64,000 nt of DNA. Origin: Acuticoccus yangtzensis. GTDB lineage: Bacteria; Pseudomonadota; Alphaproteobacteria; Rhizobiales; Amorphaceae. The stretch is taken from assembly GCF_001927245.1 (NCBI RefSeq), contig NZ_MJUX01000001.1:682001-746000 (forward strand), in the 5' to 3' direction. Of the stretch, positions 10,417 to 21,940 are shown piece by piece; positions within the stretch are counted from its first letter, which is position 1, and every line of letters begins with the position of its first letter. The position numbers and the translations under genes were made by a program. The notes beneath the pieces were generated by a model. That model had not been told where the DNA came from and did no database searches. It worked only from the letters and a program-made list of their open reading frames with translations.

Positions 10417-10493
10417 GTCCTCGTAGCTCAGCAGGATAGAGCACAGGATTCCTAATCCTGGGGTCGCAGGTTCGAATCCTGCCGGGGACACCA
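10417..10493 (+). tRNA. tRNA-Arg(CCT)
   Basis: A complete 77-nt cloverleaf. The acceptor stem pairs GTCCTCG with CGGGGAC, and the D arm is GCTC/GAGC. The anticodon stem CAGGA/TCCTG encloses the loop TTCCTAA with anticodon CCT. The T arm is GCAGG/CCTGC around TTCGAAT. A genomically encoded CCA occupies 10491-10493. It reads AGG arginine codons, rare in this GC-rich genome. Confidence 0.97.
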
Positions 10494-10514: not shown

Positions 10515-11486
10515 TCACGCCGGGGTGCCTTGCGCCGGTCGCGGGGCGGCGAGGGCGGCGGCATGGTCGCGGGTGGCGGCGATGAAATCGTCGACGCTGC
10601 GTTCCAGCTCCTCCACTTCGGCCGTGAACCAGTCCACCAGCGTCTTGACGTGGGGCGGCGCGTCATCGGCCACCATCAGGAAAAAGCTGCGATCGAGGCT
10701 CGCGACATAGGGGAAGGGCGCAACGAGGCGGCCTGCCCGTAAATCTCCCATCACGAGGGCCAATTGGCCCATCGCGACGCCAGAGCCGCCCAGCGCGGCC
10801 TCATAGGCGAGGTCGGAGTTGCCGAACAGGATCGAACGCTCGGGCCGCGCCATCGTGTTCGGCAGGGAGGCCCGCCAGAACGGCCAGTCGTCCAACCGGT
10901 TCTGCGACTCCAGCAAGATCGCCCTGTCGAGATCCTCCAGCCGCCGCAACGGGTTCTGCTCCAGATAGGCCGGGCTCGCCACCGGCGTCAGGCGGGCACT
11001 GTGAAGACGCACGCTGCGCACACCCGGCCAGCCGCCGAACCCGTCGCGGACGGCGATGGAGGACCCCGCCGGCGCCCGCGTGATCCAGTGGGACGACGTG
11101 ATCTGCACCTCGATGTCCGGAAAGAGTGCGTAAAAGCGCGGCAGACGCGGGATCAGAACCCGCCGCGCGTGGGTCGGATAGATCAGGATCTGGATCGCGC
11201 CCTTGTCGGTGCCGCGGCTCGCGACCGCGTTGACGGCCGAGTCGATCTGCTGGAACGCCGGCATCAACACCGCCGCCAGCATCTGCCCCTCCCGCGTCAA
11301 CGTCACCGACTGGTGGCCGCGCTCGAAAAGCGCGCAGCCGATGCGCTTTTCCAGCGTGCGGATCTGCTGGCTCACCGCGCTCTGCGTCACGCAAATTTCC
11401 GCCGCCGCCTGGGTGAAGCTCGAATGGCGGGCAGCCGCCTCGAAGGCCCGCAGGTGGTTGAGGGGCAGCTTCAACTCATTAGCCAT
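10515..11486 (-). CDS. LysR-family transcriptional regulator (GcvA-like)
   Basis: A 323-residue LTTR. The N-terminal winged helix reads LNHLRAFEAAARHSSFTQAA and VTQSAVSQQIRTLEKRIG; the remainder is the periplasmic-binding-like effector domain. The ATG at 11486 (MANELKLPLNHLRAFE) gives the standard family start; the frame is open to 11540. It is divergent from the CoA-transferase/TRAP cluster, with 126 bp between start codons, and is the obvious candidate regulator of that cluster. A perfect ATTAG-N5-CTAAT dyad overlaps its own start codon, consistent with autoregulation. The effector is unknown but is probably the imported acid or its CoA ester. Confidence 0.92.
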   Translation of the reverse strand: MANELKLPLNHLRAFEAAARHSSFTQAAAEICVTQSAVSQQIRTLEKRIGCALFERGHQSVTLTREGQMLAAVLMPAFQQIDSAVNAVASRGTDKGAIQILIYPTHARRVLIPRLPRFYALFPDIEVQITSSHWITRAPAGSSIAVRDGFGGWPGVRSVRLHSARLTPVASPAYLEQNPLRRLEDLDRAILLESQNRLDDWPFWRASLPNTMARPERSILFGNSDLAYEAALGGSGVAMGQLALVMGDLRAGRLVAPFPYVASLDRSFFLMVADDAPPHVKTLVDWFTAEVEELERSVDDFIAATRDHAAALAAPRPAQGTPA

Positions 11487-11493
11487 GCTAATG
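11477..11493. promoter_or_regulatory. LysR-type (T-N11-A) operator overlapping the regulator's start codon
   Basis: CATTAGCCATGCTAATG is a perfect 6-bp inverted repeat with a 5-base spacer. It satisfies the T-N11-A rule for LTTR recognition sites. It spans the LysR ATG (11486-11484 on the minus strand). A looser similar element lies at about 11539-11553 nearer the CoA-transferase gene. Confidence 0.5.
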
Positions 11494-11612
11494 CATTCGA
11501 CCTCTTTTTTATCGCTTGCCGCAAATCGGTGCGTGATCATTAATCTCTAAGTGCCTGCAAAAAATACACAAGAAAGCCCGGTCAAGCCGGGTCGGGGCAC
11601 CGGGGAGGAACC

Positions 11613-12836
11613 ATGCGGAAAGACGTGCATCAGAAGAGCTTCACGCCGGAGGCGGTGGGGCCGCTGAAAGGCGTGCGGGTCGTCGATGCCTCGCGCCTCG
11701 TGTGCGGTAATACGTTGACTTTCATGCTCGCCGACTTCGGCGCCGAGGTCATCAAGGTGGAGCGTCCCGTGACGGGCGATCCCTTGCGCGAGTGGAAGAA
11801 CGGCGGCCACAGCCTTTATTGGAAGATTTTCGGCCGCAACAAGAAGAGCACCGCCATCGACTTCGCCCGCCCCGAGGGGCGCGACGTGCTCTTGCGCCTT
11901 CTGGAAGCCGCGGACTGCTTCGTTGAAAGCTTCCGCTACGGCACGCTGGAAAAGCTGGGCCTTGGGCCGGACGACCTGTTGAAGCGCAATCCGCGCCTCG
12001 TCATCGTGCGGGTCTCCGGCTGGGGCCAGACCGGGCCGTACCGCACGCGGCCGGGCTTCGGCACGCTCATCGAATCCTTCGCAGGCTTTGCCGAGAAGAG
12101 CGGCTATCCGGACCGGCCGCCGCTTCTGCCCAACATGCCGCTCGCCGACCAGGTGGCGGGCCTCACGGGCGCCTTCGCCACGCTCGCCGCCCTGCGCCAT
12201 GCGGAGGCGACCGGCGAGGGCCAGGTGGTGGACCTTTCCATCCTCGAACCGCTGCACGCGCTGATTTCGGCGGACGCCGCCATCTACGACGCCTGTGGCG
12301 AGAAGCCCCAGCGCACCGGCAGCCGCTCGGTCACGGTCGCCCCGCGCAACGTCTATCAGACCGCGGACGGGCCCTATATCGCGATCGCCGCGTCCATGCA
12401 GTCGATGGCGCATCGCCTGCTGGCGGCCATCGGACGGCCCGAGTTGAACGAGGATCCGCGCTACCGCCTGCCCGAGGACCGGGTGCGCAACGCCGATGAT
12501 CTCGACCAGATCATCGCCGACTGGGTGCGCAGCCGCTCCCTCGCCGACAACCTGAAGATCCTTGGCGATGCCGGCGTCACCGTCGGCCCCGTCAACGCCG
12601 TCGACATGCTGATCGAGGATGAGCACGTCGCCGAACGTGAGGTGCTGGTGCGGGTTCCGGACGAGGAGGCCGGCACGGTTTTGATGCCCGGCATCTTCCC
12701 GCGGCTGGACCGATCTCCCGGTGCCCTGCGCACCCCCGCCCCCGGCATCGGCGACCATACCGAAGAGATCCTGACCGGCCTCGGCGTCGAGCCGTCACAG
12801 CTCGCGGCGCTGCGCGAAAGCGGCGCGGTCCAGTAG
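11613..12836 (+). CDS. Family III CoA transferase (CaiB/BaiF type)
   Basis: A 407-residue enzyme that moves CoA between carboxylic acids. Family hallmarks are LKGVRVVDASRLVCGNTLTF, the ADFGAEVIKVERP segment, and the GRNKKSTAIDFARPEGRD segment. The catalytic aspartate is Asp179 in MPLADQVAGLTGAFA. GGGGAGGA precedes the ATG. The gene opens the catabolic cluster and is followed by TRAP transporter genes, two MaoC-type hydratase genes and an HMG-CoA-lyase-type gene. It probably loads CoA onto the imported acid using succinyl-CoA or acetyl-CoA as donor. The family includes succinyl-CoA:mesaconate/itaconate, formyl-CoA and crotonobetainyl-CoA transferases, and specificity cannot be read from the sequence. 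Confidence 0.9.
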   Translation: MRKDVHQKSFTPEAVGPLKGVRVVDASRLVCGNTLTFMLADFGAEVIKVERPVTGDPLREWKNGGHSLYWKIFGRNKKSTAIDFARPEGRDVLLRLLEAADCFVESFRYGTLEKLGLGPDDLLKRNPRLVIVRVSGWGQTGPYRTRPGFGTLIESFAGFAEKSGYPDRPPLLPNMPLADQVAGLTGAFATLAALRHAEATGEGQVVDLSILEPLHALISADAAIYDACGEKPQRTGSRSVTVAPRNVYQTADGPYIAIAASMQSMAHRLLAAIGRPELNEDPRYRLPEDRVRNADDLDQIIADWVRSRSLADNLKILGDAGVTVGPVNAVDMLIEDEHVAEREVLVRVPDEEAGTVLMPGIFPRLDRSPGALRTPAPGIGDHTEEILTGLGVEPSQLAALRESGAVQ

Positions 12837-12975
12837 CGCCCGACGCCGCCGCGCCGCTGCGCGACGGGCAGGCGCCCCCCTTCACGAAATCCGGTAGCGG
12901 CCGCCAAGAGCCGCACCACCTTCGTCAGCCGGCTCGTTCCGGCGATCACGACACGCCCGGGAGGCACACCGCTCA

Positions 12976-14268
12976 ATGGACTTCGTATTCGTGCTTTTGA
13001 CCCTGTTCGGGTTGCTGCTCATCGGCGCGCCGATCTTTCTGGCGCTCGGGACGGCGGGCCTCTTGGGTCTGTTCCTGGAGCGCGGACCGATGGCGCTGAC
13101 CCTCGCCAGCTCCTCGATCTTCAGCCAGCTCCACCACTTCGAGCTCGTCGCTCTGCCGCTCTTCATCCTGATGGGCTTCGTGCTGGTCGAAACGCCGATC
13201 GGGCGCGACCTCTTCCGCGCCGCGGAGCAATGGTTCGGCTGGCTGCGCGGCGGCCTCGCCATCTCCTCGGTCGGCACCTGCACCGTGTTCGGTGCGATGA
13301 GCGGCGTCTCCATCGCCGGCGTCGCCTCGGTCGGGGCGCTCGCGGTGCCGGAGATGATCGACCGCGGCTATTCCCGTTCGCTCGCCGCCGGCAGCGTGGT
13401 GACGGCCGGGGCGCTCGCGATGCTCATTCCCCCCAGCGTCCCCTTCATCATCTACAGCGCGATGACCGGCGTCTCGATCGCCGACCTCTTCGTGGCGGGC
13501 ATCGTCCCGGGCCTGTCGCTCGCGCTCGCCTTCTCGGTCTACATCTATATCCGCGCGACCTTGAACCCGTCCGAGGCGCCGCAGCCCGAGGGCAGCGTCG
13601 GCTGGGGGTCCAAGTTCAAGAGCCTGTCGCGCGTGTGGCACGCTCTGCTGCTCATCTTCATCGTGCTCGGCGCCATCTATGGCGGCGTCGCGACGCCCAG
13701 CGAGGCGTCCGCGGTCGGCGCGCTCGGCGCCTTCATCATCGCCGGTGCCGTCTATCGCACGCTGGACTGGGCGGCGGTGAAGCGCATCTTCGTCACCAGC
13801 CTCAACGTGACGGCGGCCGTCCTTCTCATCATGGCCGCCGCGCGCATCTTCGGCGACTATCTCAACCTCGCCCGCATTCCGTTCTTCCTCTCGGAATCGA
13901 TCGTGGCGATGGACATCACCCCGCTTGCGGTGATCCTCGTCATCGCCACCTTCCTCATCCTGCTCGGCATGTTCGTCGACGCGGGGTCGATCATCGTGGT
14001 GACGACGCCGATCCTGCTGCCGGTGATCCTGGCGCTCGGCTACGATCCGCTCTGGTTCGGCGTCGTTCTGGTGCTCACCCTGGAAATCGCGGTGGTGACG
14101 CCGCCGGTGGGCCTCAACCTCTACGCGCTGCGGGGTACGTGCCCGTTCCTGAGGATCGAGGAAATCATCCGCAGTGCCATGCCCTTCGTCGGCATCCAGA
14201 TCCTGGTGCTGCTCCTCTTCATCCTGATCCCCGAGCTGGCCCTCTGGCTGCCGCACGCGGTCCGCTAA
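12976..14268 (+). CDS. TRAP transporter large permease (DctM-like)
   Basis: A 430-residue membrane protein with about 12 hydrophobic segments, the Na+/substrate-translocating subunit of a tripartite ATP-independent periplasmic transporter. DctM landmarks include LVALPLFILMGFVL near residue 60, SGVSIAGVASVGALAVPEM, and the C-terminal VVTPPVGLNLYALRG loop. GGGAGG precedes the ATG. The order here is M-P-Q, with the binding protein and small permease genes following immediately. The position after the CoA transferase gene argues that the ligand is the substrate of that enzyme. Confidence 0.95.
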   Translation: MDFVFVLLTLFGLLLIGAPIFLALGTAGLLGLFLERGPMALTLASSSIFSQLHHFELVALPLFILMGFVLVETPIGRDLFRAAEQWFGWLRGGLAISSVGTCTVFGAMSGVSIAGVASVGALAVPEMIDRGYSRSLAAGSVVTAGALAMLIPPSVPFIIYSAMTGVSIADLFVAGIVPGLSLALAFSVYIYIRATLNPSEAPQPEGSVGWGSKFKSLSRVWHALLLIFIVLGAIYGGVATPSEASAVGALGAFIIAGAVYRTLDWAAVKRIFVTSLNVTAAVLLIMAAARIFGDYLNLARIPFFLSESIVAMDITPLAVILVIATFLILLGMFVDAGSIIVVTTPILLPVILALGYDPLWFGVVLVLTLEIAVVTPPVGLNLYALRGTCPFLRIEEIIRSAMPFVGIQILVLLLFILIPELALWLPHAVR

Positions 14269-14292
14269 CAAAAAACCAAGGGAAAAACGTCC

Positions 14293-15324
14293 GTGATTTC
14301 GAAGCGTTCACTCCTCAAGGGGGCCATGGCCCTTCCGGCTCTCGCCGCCCTTCCCGGCAGCCTCCGCCCCGCCTTCGCGGCGCAGAAGATGACCGGCGTC
14401 ACCTACCTGACGCCCGCCTACGAGTCGCTGCTGTGGGGCTTTCACGGCTTCGTCGACGCGCTGAAGGAAGCCGGCGGCGGCGAGATCGAGGTCGACTTCT
14501 ACGACTCCGGCACGCTGCTGTCGGCCGCCGAGCAGGTCTCGGGCCTGCGCTCCGGCCTGATCGACTTCATGTTCCACACCACCAGCTACATCAACGGCTC
14601 CTTCCCGATCCTCGGCGTGACGGGCCTGCCTTATGTGGTGGACGAGCTGTTCCGGAACCCGGACCGGCTGAAGATCGGTAGCCCCCTCTTCACGCTGATC
14701 AAAGAGGAAGTCGCCAAGCAGAACATGGAGCTTCTCTCGCTGAGCGGCGGCATCCTCGAGCCGGACTATCTGTGGAGCGGCAGCAGCGCCATCAACTCCA
14801 TGGACGCCATCTCCGGTAAGCGCATCCGCGTTCAGGGCCTCGAGGCGTCGACGGTGCTCGAGAATCTCGGCGCCGCGGTGGTCTCCCTGCCCTCCTCCGA
14901 GCTCTACCTCGCCATCCAGCGCGGCACGATCGACGGCCTGGTGGCCAACGTCGCGACCGTCGACGGGCGCCGCCTGCAGGAGCAGACCAGCCAGGTGCTG
15001 AAGCTCCCCATCGGCGCCAACACGCAAGGCCTCTTCATGCTGAAGAGCAGCTACGAGCGCCTCCCCGACGAGACGAAGGACGCACTCGCCACCGCCACCG
15101 CCTGGTTCGACGAGAACGCCGCGCGCCACATCGTCGAGGACGACATCCCGACCGTGTGGCCGAAGATGGTCGAGGCGGGCGTCGACGTGATCGAGCCGTC
15201 CGAGGCCGACATGGAGAAGTTCCGCGAGATGTCCGAGCCGATCTGGGAGACCTGGAAGGGTCAGGTCGGCGAGGAGGTCGGCGACCGGGCGCTGAAGCTC
15301 GCCCTCGGCCAGACCGAGGGCTGA
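14293..15324 (+). CDS. TRAP transporter substrate-binding protein (DctP-like)
   Basis: A 343-residue periplasmic receptor starting with GTG at 14293 (AAGGGA upstream). The leader ISKRSLLKGAMALPALAALP is a signal peptide with a KR pair resembling, but not matching, a canonical twin-arginine motif; cleavage is likely after AFAA. The DctP fold is indicated by QVSGLRSGLIDFMFHTTSYI and GKRIRVQGLEASTVLENLGA. The arginine in the IRVQG stretch occupies the region where DctP proteins hold the ligand carboxylate. Only 24 bp separates it from the DctM gene, and the small permease gene follows at once. The ligand is unknown; a carboxylate is expected. Confidence 0.93.
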   Translation: MISKRSLLKGAMALPALAALPGSLRPAFAAQKMTGVTYLTPAYESLLWGFHGFVDALKEAGGGEIEVDFYDSGTLLSAAEQVSGLRSGLIDFMFHTTSYINGSFPILGVTGLPYVVDELFRNPDRLKIGSPLFTLIKEEVAKQNMELLSLSGGILEPDYLWSGSSAINSMDAISGKRIRVQGLEASTVLENLGAAVVSLPSSELYLAIQRGTIDGLVANVATVDGRRLQEQTSQVLKLPIGANTQGLFMLKSSYERLPDETKDALATATAWFDENAARHIVEDDIPTVWPKMVEAGVDVIEPSEADMEKFREMSEPIWETWKGQVGEEVGDRALKLALGQTEG

Positions 15325-15327
15325 GTG

Positions 15328-15870
15328 ATGCAGACGGTCGCCCGCTTCATCGTCACGGTCGAGCGCTGGTGTGCCGTCAGCGCCCAGCTCGCCCTCGCCT
15401 TCATGATGGTGTCGATCTCCTACGACGCCATCATGCGCTACGCCTTCGCCGCTCCGACACGCTGGAGCTTCGAGGTGAACGGCTTCCTGATGATCTACAT
15501 CGCGATGATTCCGGCCGCGAGCATCCTACGCACCGGCGATCATCTCAACGTGGAGTTCATCTCGAACCTGATGAAGGGATGGCTGCGCACGGTGCAGCGG
15601 ATCGTGGTGTGGACCCTCGGCCTCGCGTTCTCGCTCCTCATGCTGAAGTACACCTTCATCGGCGCGCACGAGGCGTGGGCCTACAACGAACGGATGTCGA
15701 CGACCCTCGGGACGCCGATGGTCCTGCCCAAGGCCATCCTGCCGTTCGGCTTCACGCTGCTGTCCCTGCAGTTCGGCCTGAACCTCCTCGGAGAGTTCAT
15801 GCGCCTGCCGGCCGGCACCGTCACCGGCGCTCCCACCGACCCGCTCGATGAGCCCAAGCCCGCGATCTGA
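15328..15870 (+). CDS. TRAP transporter small permease (DctQ-like)
   Basis: A 180-residue protein with four predicted membrane helices and the DctQ segments RYAFAAPTRWSFEVNGFLMI and RTGDHLNVEFI. An ATG at 15328 is used; the GTG at 15325 directly before it would add one residue. It begins 3 bp after the DctP stop, completing the M-P-Q operon, and precedes the two hydratase genes by 80 bp. Confidence 0.92.
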   Translation: MQTVARFIVTVERWCAVSAQLALAFMMVSISYDAIMRYAFAAPTRWSFEVNGFLMIYIAMIPAASILRTGDHLNVEFISNLMKGWLRTVQRIVVWTLGLAFSLLMLKYTFIGAHEAWAYNERMSTTLGTPMVLPKAILPFGFTLLSLQFGLNLLGEFMRLPAGTVTGAPTDPLDEPKPAI

Positions 15871-15950
15871 CCCGCGCGGCACGTGCCGGGCCGCCCCCAT
15901 CGCGGGCGCGGCGGCCCGGCCTCATCGGCTTTTGGAAAGACCTCATCATC

Positions 15951-16478
15951 ATGACCGACCTGGACGTGAACTACATCACCGATGACGTGAAGGCGCTCAT
16001 CGGCATGGAGTCCGACTTTTGCGAGATGCCTCACCCCGTGGAGGCGTCCGAAGTGCGCCGCTTCCACCACGCGGTGATGGACGATTCGCCCCGCTACTCC
16101 GACGCCGGCGCCTCGCGCTATGGCGGCCCGGTCGCCCCGCTCGGCTTCCCCGTCCACATGTATCGCCGCCGGCCGGGCGAACCGGACCCGCTCGACGGGA
16201 TGGACCGTCCCGACCGTGACGGCCTCGACCGCAAGCTGCGCCCCGGCCTTCCGCCGATCGACGTGCCGCTGACCCGGCTGTTGAATGGCGGCTACCGCTA
16301 CACCTTCTACCGCTACGCCGAGATCGGCGACCGCATCTTCGTGAAGAGCCGGTACCGCGACATCTACCAGCGCAGCGGGCGCTCGGGCGTGATGGTGCTG
16401 TTCGACATCGAAGACACCTACGTCAACCAGGATCGCGAGCTGCTCCTGGAGACGAAAAACACCATCATCTTGCGCTGA
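15951..16478 (+). CDS. FAS1-like (MaoC N-terminal type) dehydratase-domain protein
   Basis: A 175-residue single hot-dog domain of the FAS1-like/MaoC_dehydrat_N type, seen in VEASEVRRFHHAVMDDSPRY, APLGFPVHMY, and RLLNGGYRYTFYRYAEIGDRI. In this group two half-size hot-dog proteins usually pair to form one enoyl-CoA hydratase; this one lacks the catalytic D-x-x-x-x-H motif, which is supplied by the next gene. It sits 10 bp before that gene, so a heteromeric hydratase is likely. Known two-part or fused relatives hydrate mesaconyl-CoA, itaconyl-CoA or similar substrates. Confidence 0.78.
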   Translation: MTDLDVNYITDDVKALIGMESDFCEMPHPVEASEVRRFHHAVMDDSPRYSDAGASRYGGPVAPLGFPVHMYRRRPGEPDPLDGMDRPDRDGLDRKLRPGLPPIDVPLTRLLNGGYRYTFYRYAEIGDRIFVKSRYRDIYQRSGRSGVMVLFDIEDTYVNQDRELLLETKNTIILR

Positions 16479-16488
16479 GGAGACCGCC

Positions 16489-16983
16489 GTGTTGGCAAAA
16501 ACGCCGCTATTCGACAGCATCAACGTCGGCGATTCCATCACGCCGCTCGTCAAAGGGCCGATGACGACCGCGCACATCATGCGCTGGTCCTCGGCGATCG
16601 AGAATTGGCATCGCATCCACTATGACCGGACCTACGCCCAGGAGCACGACAAGCTACCGGACGTGATGGTCAACGGCTCGTGGAAGCAGCACGTGCTCAT
16701 CCAGCTCGTCAGCGACTGGGCGGGCGAGGACGGCTGGGTGGTCGAGATCGACTTCCAGTTCCGCGGCATGGACGTGCCGGGCAACACCCTCACCGCCTTC
16801 GGCACCGTGACCGAGACGCGCGATTGCGGCGCCTACGGTCTCGTCATGCTGGAGATCGGCCTGAAGAACGAGACCGGCCAGAACGGCACGCCCGGCACCG
16901 CGAGCGTACTTCTGCCCAAGGCGGGCGGGCCGCCGGTCCCCTACCCGTTCGACCCGGCCATCCTCGCCGGCGCCGAGAGCTGA
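16489..16983 (+). CDS. MaoC-like acyl-CoA hydratase (hot-dog fold)
   Basis: A 164-residue hot-dog protein starting at GTG 16489 (AGGAGA upstream). The hydratase-2 catalytic region is recognisable as MRWSSAIENWHRIHYDRTYA, with the active-site Asp/His pair represented around NWHRIHYD, followed by LPDVMVNGSWKQHVLIQLV. This is probably the catalytic half of a two-subunit enoyl-CoA hydratase with the preceding FAS1-like protein. It likely adds water to an unsaturated acyl-CoA made by the CoA transferase. Substrate identity is inferred from context only. Confidence 0.82.
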   Translation: MLAKTPLFDSINVGDSITPLVKGPMTTAHIMRWSSAIENWHRIHYDRTYAQEHDKLPDVMVNGSWKQHVLIQLVSDWAGEDGWVVEIDFQFRGMDVPGNTLTAFGTVTETRDCGAYGLVMLEIGLKNETGQNGTPGTASVLLPKAGGPPVPYPFDPAILAGAES

Positions 16984-16996
16984 GAGGAGCGACACG

Positions 16997-17956
16997 ATGT
17001 CTGATCTTCCCAAGACCTGCCACATCATGGAAGTCGGCCCGCGCGACGGGCTGCAGATCGAACCCAAGGTGCTCACCGTCGAGGAGAAGCTGCGGCTGAT
17101 CGACGGGCTGGAGAAGGCCGGCTTCACCGAGATCGAGGCCGGCTCCTTCGTCAACCCGAAGGCGGTGCCGCAGATGGCGAACACGCCCGAGGTGTTCGCG
17201 GGCATCACGCCCAAGCCCGGCGTCCTCTACCGCGCCCTCTGGCTGAACGCGAAGGGGCTTGAGCGCGCCGTCGCCACGCCCAATGTCGCCGTCGACGGGG
17301 TGCTGCATCTCACCGCCAGCGAAGTCTTCGTGAAGCGCAACACCAACCGCTCCATCGCCGAGACCTTCGAGCAGCTCCCCTCGTGGATCGAGCTCTACCG
17401 CACCCACGGCATCCCGGTCGACAGCATGGGCGTCATGGCGGCGTTCGGCTGCAACTTCGAAGGCAACGTGCCGCCGCAGCGTGTGGTCGACATCATCGCC
17501 CGCACGCGCGACATCATCGCCGAGCACGGCGGGGCGCTGAAATATGTCAACCTGGCCGACACCATGGGCTGGGCGGTGCCGGACGGCATCAAGCGCCTTT
17601 GCGGGATGGTGCAGGAGCGCTGGCCCGAGCTGGAACTGAAGCTCCACCTTCACGACACGCGCGGCATGGCGATGGCCAACGCGCTGGCCGGCCTCGAGGC
17701 GGGCGTCGCCAAATATGACGGGTCGATCGCCGGGCTCGGCGGCTGTCCCTTCGCGGGCCACAAGGGCGCCGCGGGCAACATCTGCAGCGAAGACCTCGCC
17801 TTCATGTGCGCCGAGATGGGGATCGACACCGGCCTCGACCTCGACGCCTTGATCGAGGTCGCCGCGCTTGCCGAAGAGCTGGTCGGCCGCACGGTGCCCG
17901 GCAAGGTGATGAAGGGCGGCTCGCTGGAGCGCATCCGCCACGCCGTCGCGTCCTGA
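16997..17956 (+). CDS. Hydroxymethylglutaryl-CoA lyase family enzyme
   Basis: A 319-residue TIM-barrel (HMGL-like) C-C lyase. Signatures are HIMEVGPRDGLQIEPK at the N-terminus (catalytic Arg-Asp), LHLHDTRGMAMANALAG (metal-binding His-x-His), and the glycine-rich active-site loop GLGGCPFAGHKGAAGN with the catalytic Cys. AGAGGAG precedes the ATG. Canonical members cleave 3-hydroxy-3-methylglutaryl-CoA to acetyl-CoA and acetoacetate. No leucine-degradation genes accompany it here; it follows a CoA transferase, a TRAP system and hydratases. I infer a tertiary 3-hydroxyacyl-CoA (HMG-CoA or citramalyl-CoA-like) as substrate. Confidence 0.9.
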   Translation: MSDLPKTCHIMEVGPRDGLQIEPKVLTVEEKLRLIDGLEKAGFTEIEAGSFVNPKAVPQMANTPEVFAGITPKPGVLYRALWLNAKGLERAVATPNVAVDGVLHLTASEVFVKRNTNRSIAETFEQLPSWIELYRTHGIPVDSMGVMAAFGCNFEGNVPPQRVVDIIARTRDIIAEHGGALKYVNLADTMGWAVPDGIKRLCGMVQERWPELELKLHLHDTRGMAMANALAGLEAGVAKYDGSIAGLGGCPFAGHKGAAGNICSEDLAFMCAEMGIDTGLDLDALIEVAALAEELVGRTVPGKVMKGGSLERIRHAVAS

Positions 17957-18000
17957 GCCGCCACCCGCGTGGCGCGCCAGGCCGCCGTGTGACCGCCCAC

Positions 18001-18026
18001 GGCGCCGTTGCGAAGGCAACGGCGCC
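18001..18026. terminator. Perfect 11-bp hairpin at a convergent junction
   Basis: GGCGCCGTTGC pairs with GCAACGGCGCC around the loop GAAG. It lies 44 bp after the lyase stop and 10 bp from the end of the oppositely oriented carboxymuconolactone-decarboxylase-family gene, so it can serve both. No T-tract is present. Confidence 0.65.
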
Positions 18027-18036
18027 GCCTCGCGGC

Positions 18037-18414
18037 TCAGTCCTCGCTGTCCAACACCTCACGCGCGGTGCGGAAGGCGTCGATCCCTGCGGGAAGTCCG
18101 CAATAGACCGATGCCTGAAGCAACACTTCGGTGATTTCGGCCTTCGTCACGCCGTTGGTCAGAGCGCCGCGCACATGGGCTTTCAGTTCGTGCGGGCGGT
18201 TCAGCGCCGTCAGCATGGCGAGGTTGATGAGGCTCCGGCTTCTCCTGTCGAGCCCCGGCCGGTTCCAGATCTCGCCCCATCCATAGGTGGTCACGAGCTC
18301 CTGCAGCGGCGCGTTGAAGTCGTCCATTCCGGCCATCGCGCGGTCGACATAAGCGTCGCCCAGCACCTCGCGGCGCACCTTCATGCCCCGCTCGAAGATT
18401 TCTTTTTTGTCCAT
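18037..18414 (-). CDS. Carboxymuconolactone decarboxylase family protein (PcaC-like)
   Basis: A 125-residue all-helical AhpD/CMD-fold protein: ERGMKVRREVLGDAYVDRA, WNRPGLDRRSRSLINLAM, and EITEVLLQASVYCGLPAG. PcaC of the beta-ketoadipate pathway decarboxylates gamma-carboxymuconolactone, and the length and motifs fit that subgroup closely. However, no other pca ring-cleavage genes are visible, and many PcaC paralogues have other roles. An alpha/beta hydrolase resembling enol-lactonase is divergent from it at 18811. The start at 18414 has GAGGAT upstream. Confidence 0.83.
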   Translation of the reverse strand: MDKKEIFERGMKVRREVLGDAYVDRAMAGMDDFNAPLQELVTTYGWGEIWNRPGLDRRSRSLINLAMLTALNRPHELKAHVRGALTNGVTKAEITEVLLQASVYCGLPAGIDAFRTAREVLDSED

Positions 18415-18810: not shown

Positions 18811-19599
18811 ATGCCCACTTTCACCGCCGACGACGGCTGTCCCATCTACTACGAGGACGAAGGCGACGGCCCGGCGATCCTCTTCATTCCGGGCCTGGCC
18901 GGCAGCGGCAATTTCTGGTCGGGCGTACGCGCCGGACTGCCGGGCTACCGCACGCTCACCCTCGACCACCGCGGCACGGGCCGCAGCGGCATGGCAGGCG
19001 ACAGCCATACGATCCCGCGGATCGCCCGCGACGCGCTGGCCCTGCTCGACGCGGCCGGCCTCGAAAGCGCGCACATCGCCGGCCACTCCACCGGCGGGAT
19101 GGCCGCACAACACATCGCGGTGACGGCGCCCCCGCGCGTGGAGAGGCTCGTCCTCAGCAGCACGTGGGGCCATGCCGACCGGCGCTTCCGGCTGATGTTC
19201 GAGGCGCGCCTCGCCCTTCTCACCGGCGCGGGGCTCTATGCCTATACGCAGCTGACACAGGCCATCGGCTACGACGCGGCGACCTTGGACGCGAACGCGG
19301 CGGCGCTCGACGCCGACCTCGAGGCGACCCGCGACGCCGGTCCGCAACCGGTGCAGGAGGCGCGCATCCGCATGCTGCTCGGCGAGCCCGGCATTCCTGA
19401 CCACGCCGACATCATCCAGCCCACCATGGTCATCGGTGCGCCGGACGACGCGATGATCGCCTTCACCCATTCGGAGCGACTGGCGGCGGCCATTCCGAAC
19501 TCGATCCTGGTGCGGCAGATGGGCGGCCACTTCTTCCCCCGCGCCTATCCCGACGCCTATTGCGCCGCTTTGAAGGCCTTCCTCGGCGGGCAGAGGTGA
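18811..19599 (+). CDS. Alpha/beta hydrolase (3-oxoadipate enol-lactonase/RutD-like)
   Basis: A 262-residue hydrolase with the nucleophile elbow AGHSTGGMAAQ (Ser), an acid in IGAPDDAMI, and a histidine in MGGHFFPRAYP. The oxyanion region ILFIPGLAGSGNFW and DHRGTGRS are typical of the lactonase/haloperoxidase-like group. Start 18811 (GGAGTGAG upstream) is preferred over the open frame from 18529. Its TGA overlaps the GTG of the aspartate dehydrogenase gene (GTGA), so the two are translationally coupled. Possible substrates are an enol-lactone or a small ester or amide; the coupling suggests the product feeds a nitrogen-containing C4 acid, which is inference. Confidence 0.85.
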   Translation: MPTFTADDGCPIYYEDEGDGPAILFIPGLAGSGNFWSGVRAGLPGYRTLTLDHRGTGRSGMAGDSHTIPRIARDALALLDAAGLESAHIAGHSTGGMAAQHIAVTAPPRVERLVLSSTWGHADRRFRLMFEARLALLTGAGLYAYTQLTQAIGYDAATLDANAAALDADLEATRDAGPQPVQEARIRMLLGEPGIPDHADIIQPTMVIGAPDDAMIAFTHSERLAAAIPNSILVRQMGGHFFPRAYPDAYCAALKAFLGGQR

Positions 19600-20423
19600 C
19601 CGCGATTGCCGAGGAGACCGCTAGCGCCGCGGGCGGGAAACACGTCGCGGTCATCGGCTTCGGCGCCATGGGCCGCGCCGTCACGACGTCGCTCGCGGCG
19701 CGCGGCGGGCCGGCACTGATCCGCACGGCCCTGCTGCGTCCGGGCTCGGCGGCCCCGTTGCCGGACGATGTCACGCGCGTCACCAGCGTCGACGATCTCA
19801 TCGCCGCTCGCCCCGATCTCGTCGTGGAGTGCGCCACCCACGCGGCGGTGGCCACCAGCGTTCCGGCGCTTCTGGCGGCGGGGATCGACGTCGTCATCGC
19901 CTCCGTCGGCGCGCTCGGCAAGCCGGAGATCCACGCCGCGGTGACCCAAGCTGCGGCGCGAGGCGGTTCGCGTGCGATCGTCGCCACCGGGGCGATCGGC
20001 GGGCTGGACGCGCTGCGCTCGGCCGCCTGTGCAGGGCTCTCGTCGGTCCTCTATACGGGGATCAAGCCCGCAGCCGCCTGGACCGGCACACCGGCCGAGG
20101 AGGTGCTGGACCTCGGCGCCCTCACAGCGCCCGCCACGTTTTTCGAGGGCACGGCGCGCGAGGCGGCAGAACGCTTCCCCAAGAACGCCAACGTCACGGC
20201 CGCGGTCGCGCTCGCGGGTGTCGGCTTCGACGCGACGCGGGTCCGCCTCGTCGCCGATGTCGCCGGCGGCAACCGGCACGAAGTGAGCGCAGAGGGTCCG
20301 TTCGGCTCGTTCCACATCGCGCTCACCAACGCGCCCCTTCCGGACAATCCGAAGACATCCTGGCTCGCCGCTCTCAGCGTGGAACAGGCGATCCTGCGGC
20401 AATTCCAACATCTGGAGGCGTGA
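19596..20423 (+). CDS. L-aspartate dehydrogenase (NadX-like)
   Basis: A 275-residue NAD(P)-dependent amino-acid dehydrogenase of the aspartate dehydrogenase family. The Rossmann motif is VAVIGFGAMGRAV. The family-typical VVECATHAAV, ATGAIGGLDALRSA, and FPKNANVTAAVALAGVGFD segments are present; NANVTAA with its lysine and asparagine surrounds the active site. It catalyses oxidative deamination of aspartate (or reductive amination of oxaloacetate) via iminosuccinate. The GTG start at 19596 overlaps the stop of the hydrolase gene by four bases. No nadA or nadC is adjacent, so a catabolic role is as likely as NAD synthesis. Confidence 0.88.
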   Translation: MTAIAEETASAAGGKHVAVIGFGAMGRAVTTSLAARGGPALIRTALLRPGSAAPLPDDVTRVTSVDDLIAARPDLVVECATHAAVATSVPALLAAGIDVVIASVGALGKPEIHAAVTQAAARGGSRAIVATGAIGGLDALRSAACAGLSSVLYTGIKPAAAWTGTPAEEVLDLGALTAPATFFEGTAREAAERFPKNANVTAAVALAGVGFDATRVRLVADVAGGNRHEVSAEGPFGSFHIALTNAPLPDNPKTSWLAALSVEQAILRQFQHLEA

Positions 20424-20554
20424 CGGCGGCGGGACCGGCCGGCGGCGCCCCCTGCGGCGCGCCGATGCTGCACCGCGCTACCCATCGCGCCATCTTCGTA
20501 TAGGGTTGGCGGCATTCTCGCATACGGGGGCCTGACGGCCGCGAAGGGATGAGA

Positions 20555-21940
20555 ATGGGCTACAAGTACGCAGTGGGCCACGAGGTCCATCGGTTCGACA
20601 CGCTCGCCGTGCTGATGGCGAAGGCGACGCCGCGCCGTTCGGGGGACGAACTCGCCGGTGTCGCGGCGGCGGACCCGGAGGAACGCGCCGCCGCCCAGTT
20701 GGCGCTGGCGGACCTGCCGCTGAAGACCTTCCTCGACGAGCCTCTCGTCCCCTACGAGTCAGACGAGGTGACCCGCCTCATCCTCGACAGCCACGACCGG
20801 GACGCCTTCGCCCCCATCGCCCACCTGACCGTGGGCGACTTCCGCGACCTTCTGCTGACGGACGACGTGGACGGCGCGGTGCTGGCGGCGCTCGCCCCCG
20901 GCCTGACGCCGGAGATGGCGGCGGCGGTCTCCAAGATCTCGCGCAATCAAGACTTGGTCCTCGTCGCCCAGAAGGCGGAGGTGGTCACGCGCTTCCGCAA
21001 CACCATCGGCCTCAAGGGCCGCTTCTCGACGCGGCTTCAGCCCAACCATCCGACGGACGATCCCAACGGCATCGCCGCGGTGATCCTGGACGGGCTGATG
21101 TATGGCAGCGGCGACGCGGTGATCGGCATCAACCCGGTGTCGGACTCCATCCCCGCGGTGATGACGCTCCTGAAGATGCTGGACGATGTGATCCAGACCT
21201 ACGCCATCCCCACGCAGGGGTGCATTCTCTCCCACGTGACGACCTCGCTCGAATGCATCGAGCGCGGTGCCCCGGTGGACCTCACCTTCCAGTCGATCGG
21301 CGGCACGGAGGGCACCAACCGCTCCTTCGGCGTGACGCTCTCCATCCTACAGGAGGCGATGGAGGCGACGCGCAGCCTGAAGCGCGGAACGGTGGGTGAC
21401 AACGTGATGTATTTCGAGACCGGCCAGGGGAGCGCGCTCTCGGCCGGGGCACACCACGGGGTGGACCAGCAGACGCTGGAGGCGCGGGCCTACGGCGTGG
21501 CGCGGGCCTTCTCGCCGCTTCTCGTCAACACGGTGGTCGGCTTCATCGGCCCGGAATATCTCTATGACGGACGGCAGATCCTGCGCGCGGGGCTGGAGGA
21601 CCATTTCTGCGGCAAGCTGCTCGGCCTGCCGATGGGGTGCGACATCTGCTACACCAACCACGCCGACGCCGACCAGAACGACATGGACACGCTGCTGACG
21701 ATGCTGGCGGTGGCGGGCGTCACCTACATCATGGGCATTCCGGGGTCGGACGACGTGATGCTGAACTACCAGACGACCTCGTTCCACGACGCGCTCTATG
21801 CCCGCCGCGTTCTGGGCCGCCAGCCGGCGCCGGAGTTCGCCGCGTGGCTGGAGAAGACGGGCCTTTTCGACGGGGAGACGCTGACGCGGCGCGCCAGCCC
21901 CTCCGGCCCGTTCCAGGCCGTTCTGGAGGCGGCGCGATGA
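20555..21940 (+). CDS. eutB: Ethanolamine ammonia-lyase large subunit
   Basis: Catalytic subunit of the adenosylcobalamin-dependent lyase converting ethanolamine to acetaldehyde and ammonia. The 461-residue sequence tracks E. coli EutB throughout: RSGDELAGVAAADPEERAAA, SRNQDLVLVAQKAEVVTRF, ETGQGSALSAGAHHGVDQQT, NTVVGFIGPEYLYDGRQI and CYTNHADADQND. The start at 20555 is placed by GAAGGG six bases upstream; the ATG at 20549 abuts that site. The eutC start overlaps its stop (ATGA). No microcompartment shell genes, EutA reactivase or transporter gene is in the window. Confidence 0.97.
   Translation: MGYKYAVGHEVHRFDTLAVLMAKATPRRSGDELAGVAAADPEERAAAQLALADLPLKTFLDEPLVPYESDEVTRLILDSHDRDAFAPIAHLTVGDFRDLLLTDDVDGAVLAALAPGLTPEMAAAVSKISRNQDLVLVAQKAEVVTRFRNTIGLKGRFSTRLQPNHPTDDPNGIAAVILDGLMYGSGDAVIGINPVSDSIPAVMTLLKMLDDVIQTYAIPTQGCILSHVTTSLECIERGAPVDLTFQSIGGTEGTNRSFGVTLSILQEAMEATRSLKRGTVGDNVMYFETGQGSALSAGAHHGVDQQTLEARAYGVARAFSPLLVNTVVGFIGPEYLYDGRQILRAGLEDHFCGKLLGLPMGCDICYTNHADADQNDMDTLLTMLAVAGVTYIMGIPGSDDVMLNYQTTSFHDALYARRVLGRQPAPEFAAWLEKTGLFDGETLTRRASPSGPFQAVLEAAR

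Follow-up and report, generated by a model that had tools for sequence, protein, structure and literature searches.

Which acid is broken down by the operon at positions 11613-17956 of a 64,000-nucleotide stretch of the Acuticoccus yangtzensis genome (contig NZ_MJUX01000001.1, positions 682,001 to 746,000; hereafter the window), and which CoA ester does its lyase cleave? The operon consists of open frames, all on the forward strand, for a class III CoA-transferase (C), a tripartite ATP-independent periplasmic (TRAP) transporter (M, P and Q), the two halves of a split hydratase (F and H) and a lyase (L) of the 3-hydroxy-3-methylglutaryl-CoA (HMG-CoA) lyase (HMGL) family. Its genes would break down a short, branched and unsaturated dicarboxylate, most likely a C5 acid of the itaconate/mesaconate type. 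In the best reading, to which we give an even chance, this is an itaconate-type breakdown of C5 dicarboxylates, with an HMGL-type enzyme taking the place of the CitE-type citramalyl-CoA lyase. Pathways of this kind are already known; what is new is the recurring combination of an HMGL-type lyase with a split hydratase.

The F-H-L enzyme core recurs across lineages

Eighty HMGL loci were collected by scanning species genomes with L, independently of F and H. In 14 of the 80, L has F or H nearby, whereas H homologues are so infrequent (18 of 384 class genomes) that only about 0.017 such loci would be expected; the linkage of F, H and L is beyond chance. Besides the window, the three genes are contiguous in L040 (Rhodobacteraceae), L041 (Falsiroseomonas), L058, L092 and L107, while H and L are contiguous in L088 and L101. 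Identities to the two nearest loci, L040 and L041, are 57-60% for F, 64-69% for H and 60-65% for L. The transporter type differs among the loci, with TRAP genes in L033 and near L040 and tripartite tricarboxylate transporters (TTT), ATP-binding cassette (ABC) or major facilitator superfamily (MFS) carriers elsewhere. The neighborhood search proposed in the first-pass annotation, for co-occurrence of all seven genes, was thus borne out for the enzyme core, which is conserved across lineages, but not for the transporter and regulator, which vary, nor for the congeners, which do not carry the operon.

L is an HMGL-type enzyme set apart from characterized HMG-CoA lyases

L (16997..17956) belongs to the HMGL (DRE-TIM) family (PF00682, 1.6e-42), and a Pfam search found no CitE-type gene, and hence no CitE-type (S)-citramalyl-CoA lyase as in the ict-ich-ccl clusters, among the genes of the operon; an HMGL-type lyase does indeed stand where a CitE-type enzyme (Ccl) is known, as the first-pass annotation had stated. 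The structure model of L, a TIM barrel, comes nearest to human HMGCL (3mp4/2cw6) and also matches 6nds, and residues R41, D42, H233, H235, C266 and N275 (human numbering throughout), which are catalytic in human HMG-CoA lyase, are all kept in the alignment. L shares the fold, the catalytic residues and, presumably, the overall reaction type of the HMG-CoA lyases LiuE, human HMGCL and YngG, but differs from them in carrying I46 and A81 rather than N and W, in a two-residue insertion after GGCPFA and in its gene neighborhood. It also does not group with the characterized enzymes: in a quick tree with some long branches, the 77-row clade that contains L is separate from the four solved HMGLs included (Shimodaira-Hasegawa-like approximate likelihood ratio test, SH-aLRT, 99).

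Among four solved relatives compared residue by residue, the I46/A81 pair occurs only in 6nds, titled in the PDB as an Acinetobacter HMG-CoA lyase complexed with coenzyme A and the C5 hydroxydicarboxylate 3-methylmalate. The shared pair may hint at citramalyl-CoA-type cleavage, as a pointer only, taken from a PDB title and not from an assay; the literature searched yielded no paper on 6nds or on an HMGL-type citramalyl-CoA lyase. A Mycobacterium enzyme is reported to serve both itaconate dissimilation and leucine catabolism (PMC6689899), which shows how close the citramalyl-CoA and HMG-CoA chemistries are. A large sister group of L (most of rows L042-L111) has Glu at the metal-ligand Asp42 position (EREQ versus ERDQ), with the other HMGL motifs intact.

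F and H resemble the halves of a split MaoC hydratase

F (15951..16478) matches the FAS1_DH-type half of a split MaoC hydratase (PF13452 FAS1_DH_region, 4.6e-17). H (16489..16983), with the motif ENWHRIHYD, has no Pfam match, and was assigned as the MaoC half from the alignment, a PDB profile match and its structure model. The AlphaFold model (pLDDT 77.9, low around the active-site loop) has a hot-dog fold matched to MaoC hydratases, and a fold search with it found the MaoC fold without separating itaconyl-CoA hydratase from other MaoC enzymes. Below E 0.01, the H profile matches only 8khg and 8huc in the PDB, both entries being of a single protein, itaconyl-CoA hydratase (E 2e-5), through HRIHYD, and the F profile gives weak PDB matches to ChsH1/ChsH2 and itaconyl-CoA hydratase. 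By these comparisons, H is likely the catalytic half of a split hydratase. ChsH1-ChsH2 and 8khg, like F-H, combine a FAS1-like half with a MaoC half in which the HRIHYD region is conserved, but the similarity is weak and at profile level, and F and H are separate genes whereas 8khg is a single 275-residue chain.

Orthologues of F-H paired with a CitE-type gene, which would be direct proof of lyase exchange, were sought, but the distant homologues of H that were fetched included none; one of these homologues is accompanied by C, HMGL and TRAP permease genes. In two Cupriavidus plasmid stretches (L031, L112), H and F are fused into one hydratase, which is accompanied by genes for a CoA-transferase, a biotin-dependent carboxylase and TTT receptors, with no HMGL in the stretch seen; judged by gene content, these loci are a different pathway with the same hydratase type.

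C belongs to a CoA-transferase clade mostly partnered by CitE-type genes

C (11613..12836; PF02515, 2.5e-116) is a class III (CaiB/BaiF) CoA-transferase, as found in the ict-ich-ccl clusters, and its LADQVAG stretch aligns with the Asp-bearing MTDLATG of succinate-hydroxymethylglutarate CoA-transferase (SUGCT). Homologues of C (41-54% identity) were drawn from class genomes. A CitE-type gene lies directly beside C at 16 of the 26 loci other than the window, an HMGL gene at 2, and neither within ~1.5 kb at the remaining 8; all six plasmid loci inspected have the C-CitE arrangement, two of them also with TRAP and LysR genes. In the tree, the C of the window sits in a 30-row clade (SH-aLRT 99) in which 20 of the 29 other members are CitE-paired, including a paralogue from the same genome, and its sister is the C of an Acidisphaera HMGL/F-H locus. 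The C-CitE operons (for example on Ancylobacter and Skermanella plasmids, and on contig C27 of the genome of the window) have a CoA-transferase of the same clade as the window, but their lyase is CitE-type and the stretches inspected showed no F-H hydratase next to C. It thus seems that in the window an F-H-L module is joined to a CoA-transferase of the kind otherwise seen with CitE. The usual substrates of CitE-type enzymes are 3-hydroxyacyl-CoAs that are cleaved to 2-oxo acids; because C belongs to a CitE-partnered clade, citramalyl-CoA is favored over HMG-CoA.

Partner genes suggest a link of the HMGL clade to itaconate and methylsuccinate clusters

Among 82 loci of the HMGL clade (the 80 from the scan and two plasmids), MmgE/PrpD genes occur in 22 and acyl-CoA dehydrogenase (ACAD) genes in 17. 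A Variovorax plasmid (L144) carries genes for a thiamine enzyme, HMGL, MmgE/PrpD, ACAD, a CoA-transferase and both MaoC halves, and a Diaphorobacter plasmid has a similar set. In the genome of the window itself, another HMGL paralogue stands in a run of HMGL, ACAD, MmgE/PrpD and DctP genes (L113, 5843-10634), which resembles an itaconate/methylsuccinate-type cluster without CitE. Elsewhere in the same genome (L114, 2665-10588), a CitE homologue, an ACAD gene, three class III CoA-transferase stretches and an HMGL homologue (41%) lie within 8 kb. In the ict-ich-ccl clusters of Pseudomonas and Cupriavidus, the ACAD is methylsuccinyl-C4-CoA dehydrogenase and MmgE/PrpD is methylsuccinate isomerase (PMC12290011), and uptake in the Pseudomonas itaconate cluster is by a TRAP transporter (PMC12599236). 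The known cluster is naturally absent from P. putida (PMC12290011). The HMGL-clade loci therefore appear to carry the parts list of an itaconate cluster with HMGL in place of the CitE-type lyase, the MmgE/PrpD and ACAD genes being matched by family only. In Sagittula sp. MA-2 (PMC11705938; plasmid match H90), HMGL and acyl-CoA transferase genes stand beside a maleylpyruvate hydrolase gene in a gentisate/polycyclic aromatic hydrocarbon cluster, and this arrangement suggests malyl-CoA or citramalyl-CoA cleavage.

Like the ict-ich-mcd-mmgE-ccl plus IctPQM cluster of Pseudomonas and Cupriavidus, the operon links a class III CoA-transferase, a MaoC-type hydratase, a CoA-ester lyase and a TRAP transporter, but its lyase is HMGL-type, its hydratase is in two genes and it has no ACAD or MmgE/PrpD gene. 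Owing to the latter, the acid taken up should be already unsaturated (or hydroxylated). The TRAP genes are encoded together, as DctM (12976..14268; PF06808, and TIGR00786 above cut-off), DctP (14293..15324; PF03480) and DctQ (15325..15870; PF04290). IctPQM itself is confined to a few Pseudomonas species (PMC12599236); the transporter of the operon is likened to it by gene type. An Arg in the GKRIRV stretch of DctP is also present in 4mco in the alignment; assigning receptor specificity from PDB relatives was abandoned, as the matches are too distant and too varied.

Operon layout and genomic site

Pfam and NCBIfam searches, with the structure model for H, confirmed the gene order of the first-pass annotation: every operon gene except H has its expected Pfam family, and a divergent LysR-type regulator (10515..11540, reverse strand; PF00126 and PF03466) lies just beyond 11613-17956. 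The regulator is GcvA-like but, at 241 bits against NF008352, is under the GcvA cut-off of 288. Gaps within M-P-Q (M-P 24, P-Q 0 bases) and F-H-L (F-H 10, H-L 13 bases, the latter starting with GAGGAG) are tight and fit one transcription unit; C-M (139 bases) and Q-F (80 bases) are looser. A consensus promoter scan gave no match, such scans being weakly informative in a high-GC genome. The gap that follows L (17957..18036) contains a GC-rich inverted repeat (GGCGCCGTTGC..GCAACGGCGCC), a probable terminator. Directly after it, and convergent to the operon, is a PcaC-like carboxymuconolactone decarboxylase family gene (18037-18414; TIGR02425, 160.5 bits, cut-off 155.7), and further downstream (19560-21940) are open reading frames that by eye resemble aspartate dehydrogenase and the large subunit of ethanolamine ammonia-lyase.

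On its other side the operon is flanked by a tRNA-Arg (CCT) gene (10417..10493, forward strand; ARAGORN). No match to F came up in seven congeners, and 60 relatives gave a single weak one. In two congeners (L181, L182), lipA, coq10 and tRNA-Arg(CCT) are in place, each with different cargo behind; since the same lipA-coq10-tRNA-Arg run is followed by other genes, the operon occupies, by gene order, a variable site beside a tRNA gene in the genus. Conserved seven-gene synteny was ruled out, as F is absent from the congeners and the tRNA-Arg is followed there by other genes. A repeated tRNA 3' end that would mark an island boundary was also sought, and no repeat of at least 14 bases was present in the window.

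Discussion

The general scheme of import, CoA transfer, hydration and retro-aldol cleavage, already put forward in the first-pass annotation, is in our judgment highly probable, and is supported by the gene families, the F-H-L linkage, the itaconate/methylsuccinate partner genes and the CitE-paired clade of C. The TRAP system would bring in the branched dicarboxylate, to which C would transfer CoA from a donor such as succinyl-CoA. The F-H heteromer would then add water to the enoyl-CoA, and possibly isomerize it, giving a tertiary 3-hydroxyacyl-CoA that is most likely citramalyl-CoA. L, as a metal-dependent HMGL-type enzyme, would carry out the retro-aldol cleavage, releasing acetyl-CoA together with pyruvate as the 2-oxo acid; LysR would detect the substrate or an intermediate. 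The order, direction and stereochemistry of each step are those we infer. That the substrate is C5, with citramalyl-CoA as the cleaved ester, also follows by inference, and we regard it as evenly poised between right and wrong. Citramalyl-CoA-type cleavage is favored over that of HMG-CoA by the occurrence of the C clade beside CitE, the title of 6nds with its I46/A81 pair and the profile match of H.

Several points weigh against this assignment. SUGCT is the PDB sequence nearest to C, the match of H to itaconyl-CoA hydratase is weak and covers 38 positions only, L lies above the NCBIfam cut-off for hydroxymethylglutaryl-CoA lyase (NF004283, 282 bits, cut-off 246), 6nds branches in the tree with other HMGLs outside the clade of L, and in the literature searched no activity is reported for any member of that clade. 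The C-CitE operons without a hydratase may have other acids as substrates, and the clade of L may itself serve several, as many of its members stand beside fused or paired CoA-transferases, carboxylases or FAA hydrolases. The score of L and the hydroxymethylglutarate CoA-transferase nearest to C would suit catabolism of 3-methylglutaconate (or HMG), in which C would form 3-methylglutaconyl-CoA, F-H would convert it to HMG-CoA and L would act as an ordinary HMG-CoA lyase, releasing acetoacetate and acetyl-CoA; the biotin-dependent carboxylase genes beside the Cupriavidus plasmid F/H homologues, as in glutaconyl-type routes, and the carboxylases beside some HMGLs of the clade of L fit it too. 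We nevertheless consider that route rather unlikely, as L falls outside the characterized HMG-CoA lyases (SH-aLRT 99) without the N46 and W81 of LiuE, HMGCL and YngG, the operon has no acetoacetate-activating gene, and the CitE-partnered clade of C points to 2-oxo-acid products.

A bulkier substrate, such as a succinate or itaconate substituted at position 2 or 3, or a tricarboxylate (aconitate, giving citryl-CoA), would yield acetyl-CoA and a larger oxo acid. The window has a single CaiB gene, a TRAP rather than a TTT transporter, and no PrpD, ACAD or aconitase gene in the operon, which makes this unlikely here, even though paired or fused CaiB genes occur in several F-H-L loci, the clade of L often has TctC/TctA transporters and MmgE/PrpD, and benzylsuccinate CoA-transferase subunits are among the PDB relatives of C. 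A Rhodococcus locus with an aconitase-family gene and a MatC-type carrier is also suggestive of such a substrate, but its HMGL is only 34% identical. Finally, the 3-methylmalate and CoA named in the title of 6nds could mean that L cleaves malyl-CoA or 3-methylmalyl-CoA, from fumarate- or mesaconate-type substrates, to glyoxylate and acetyl- or propionyl-CoA, and hydroxydicarboxylates would suit the C-CitE operons that lack a hydratase. This is improbable: the tertiary-alcohol chemistry of HMGLs fits citramalyl-CoA better, and free fumarate requires no operon of this kind.

The itaconate-type route with an HMGL-type citramalyl-CoA lyase has a wider form, which we put forward tentatively and at somewhat less than even probability: a convergent, horizontally spread C5-dicarboxylate pathway, in which HMGL serves as the citramalyl-CoA lyase together with a split MaoC itaconyl-CoA/mesaconyl-CoA hydratase, much of the Alpha- and Betaproteobacterial HMGL clade then being misannotated. 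If this is true, C5-dicarboxylate breakdown arose once more, with an unrelated lyase, and a large protein clade that public genomes list as HMG-CoA lyase bears the wrong name. The I46/A81 pair would then be a testable sequence mark for the substrate change, and such bacteria would be overlooked wherever itaconate or methylsuccinate use is predicted from genomes by the presence of the CitE-type Ccl.

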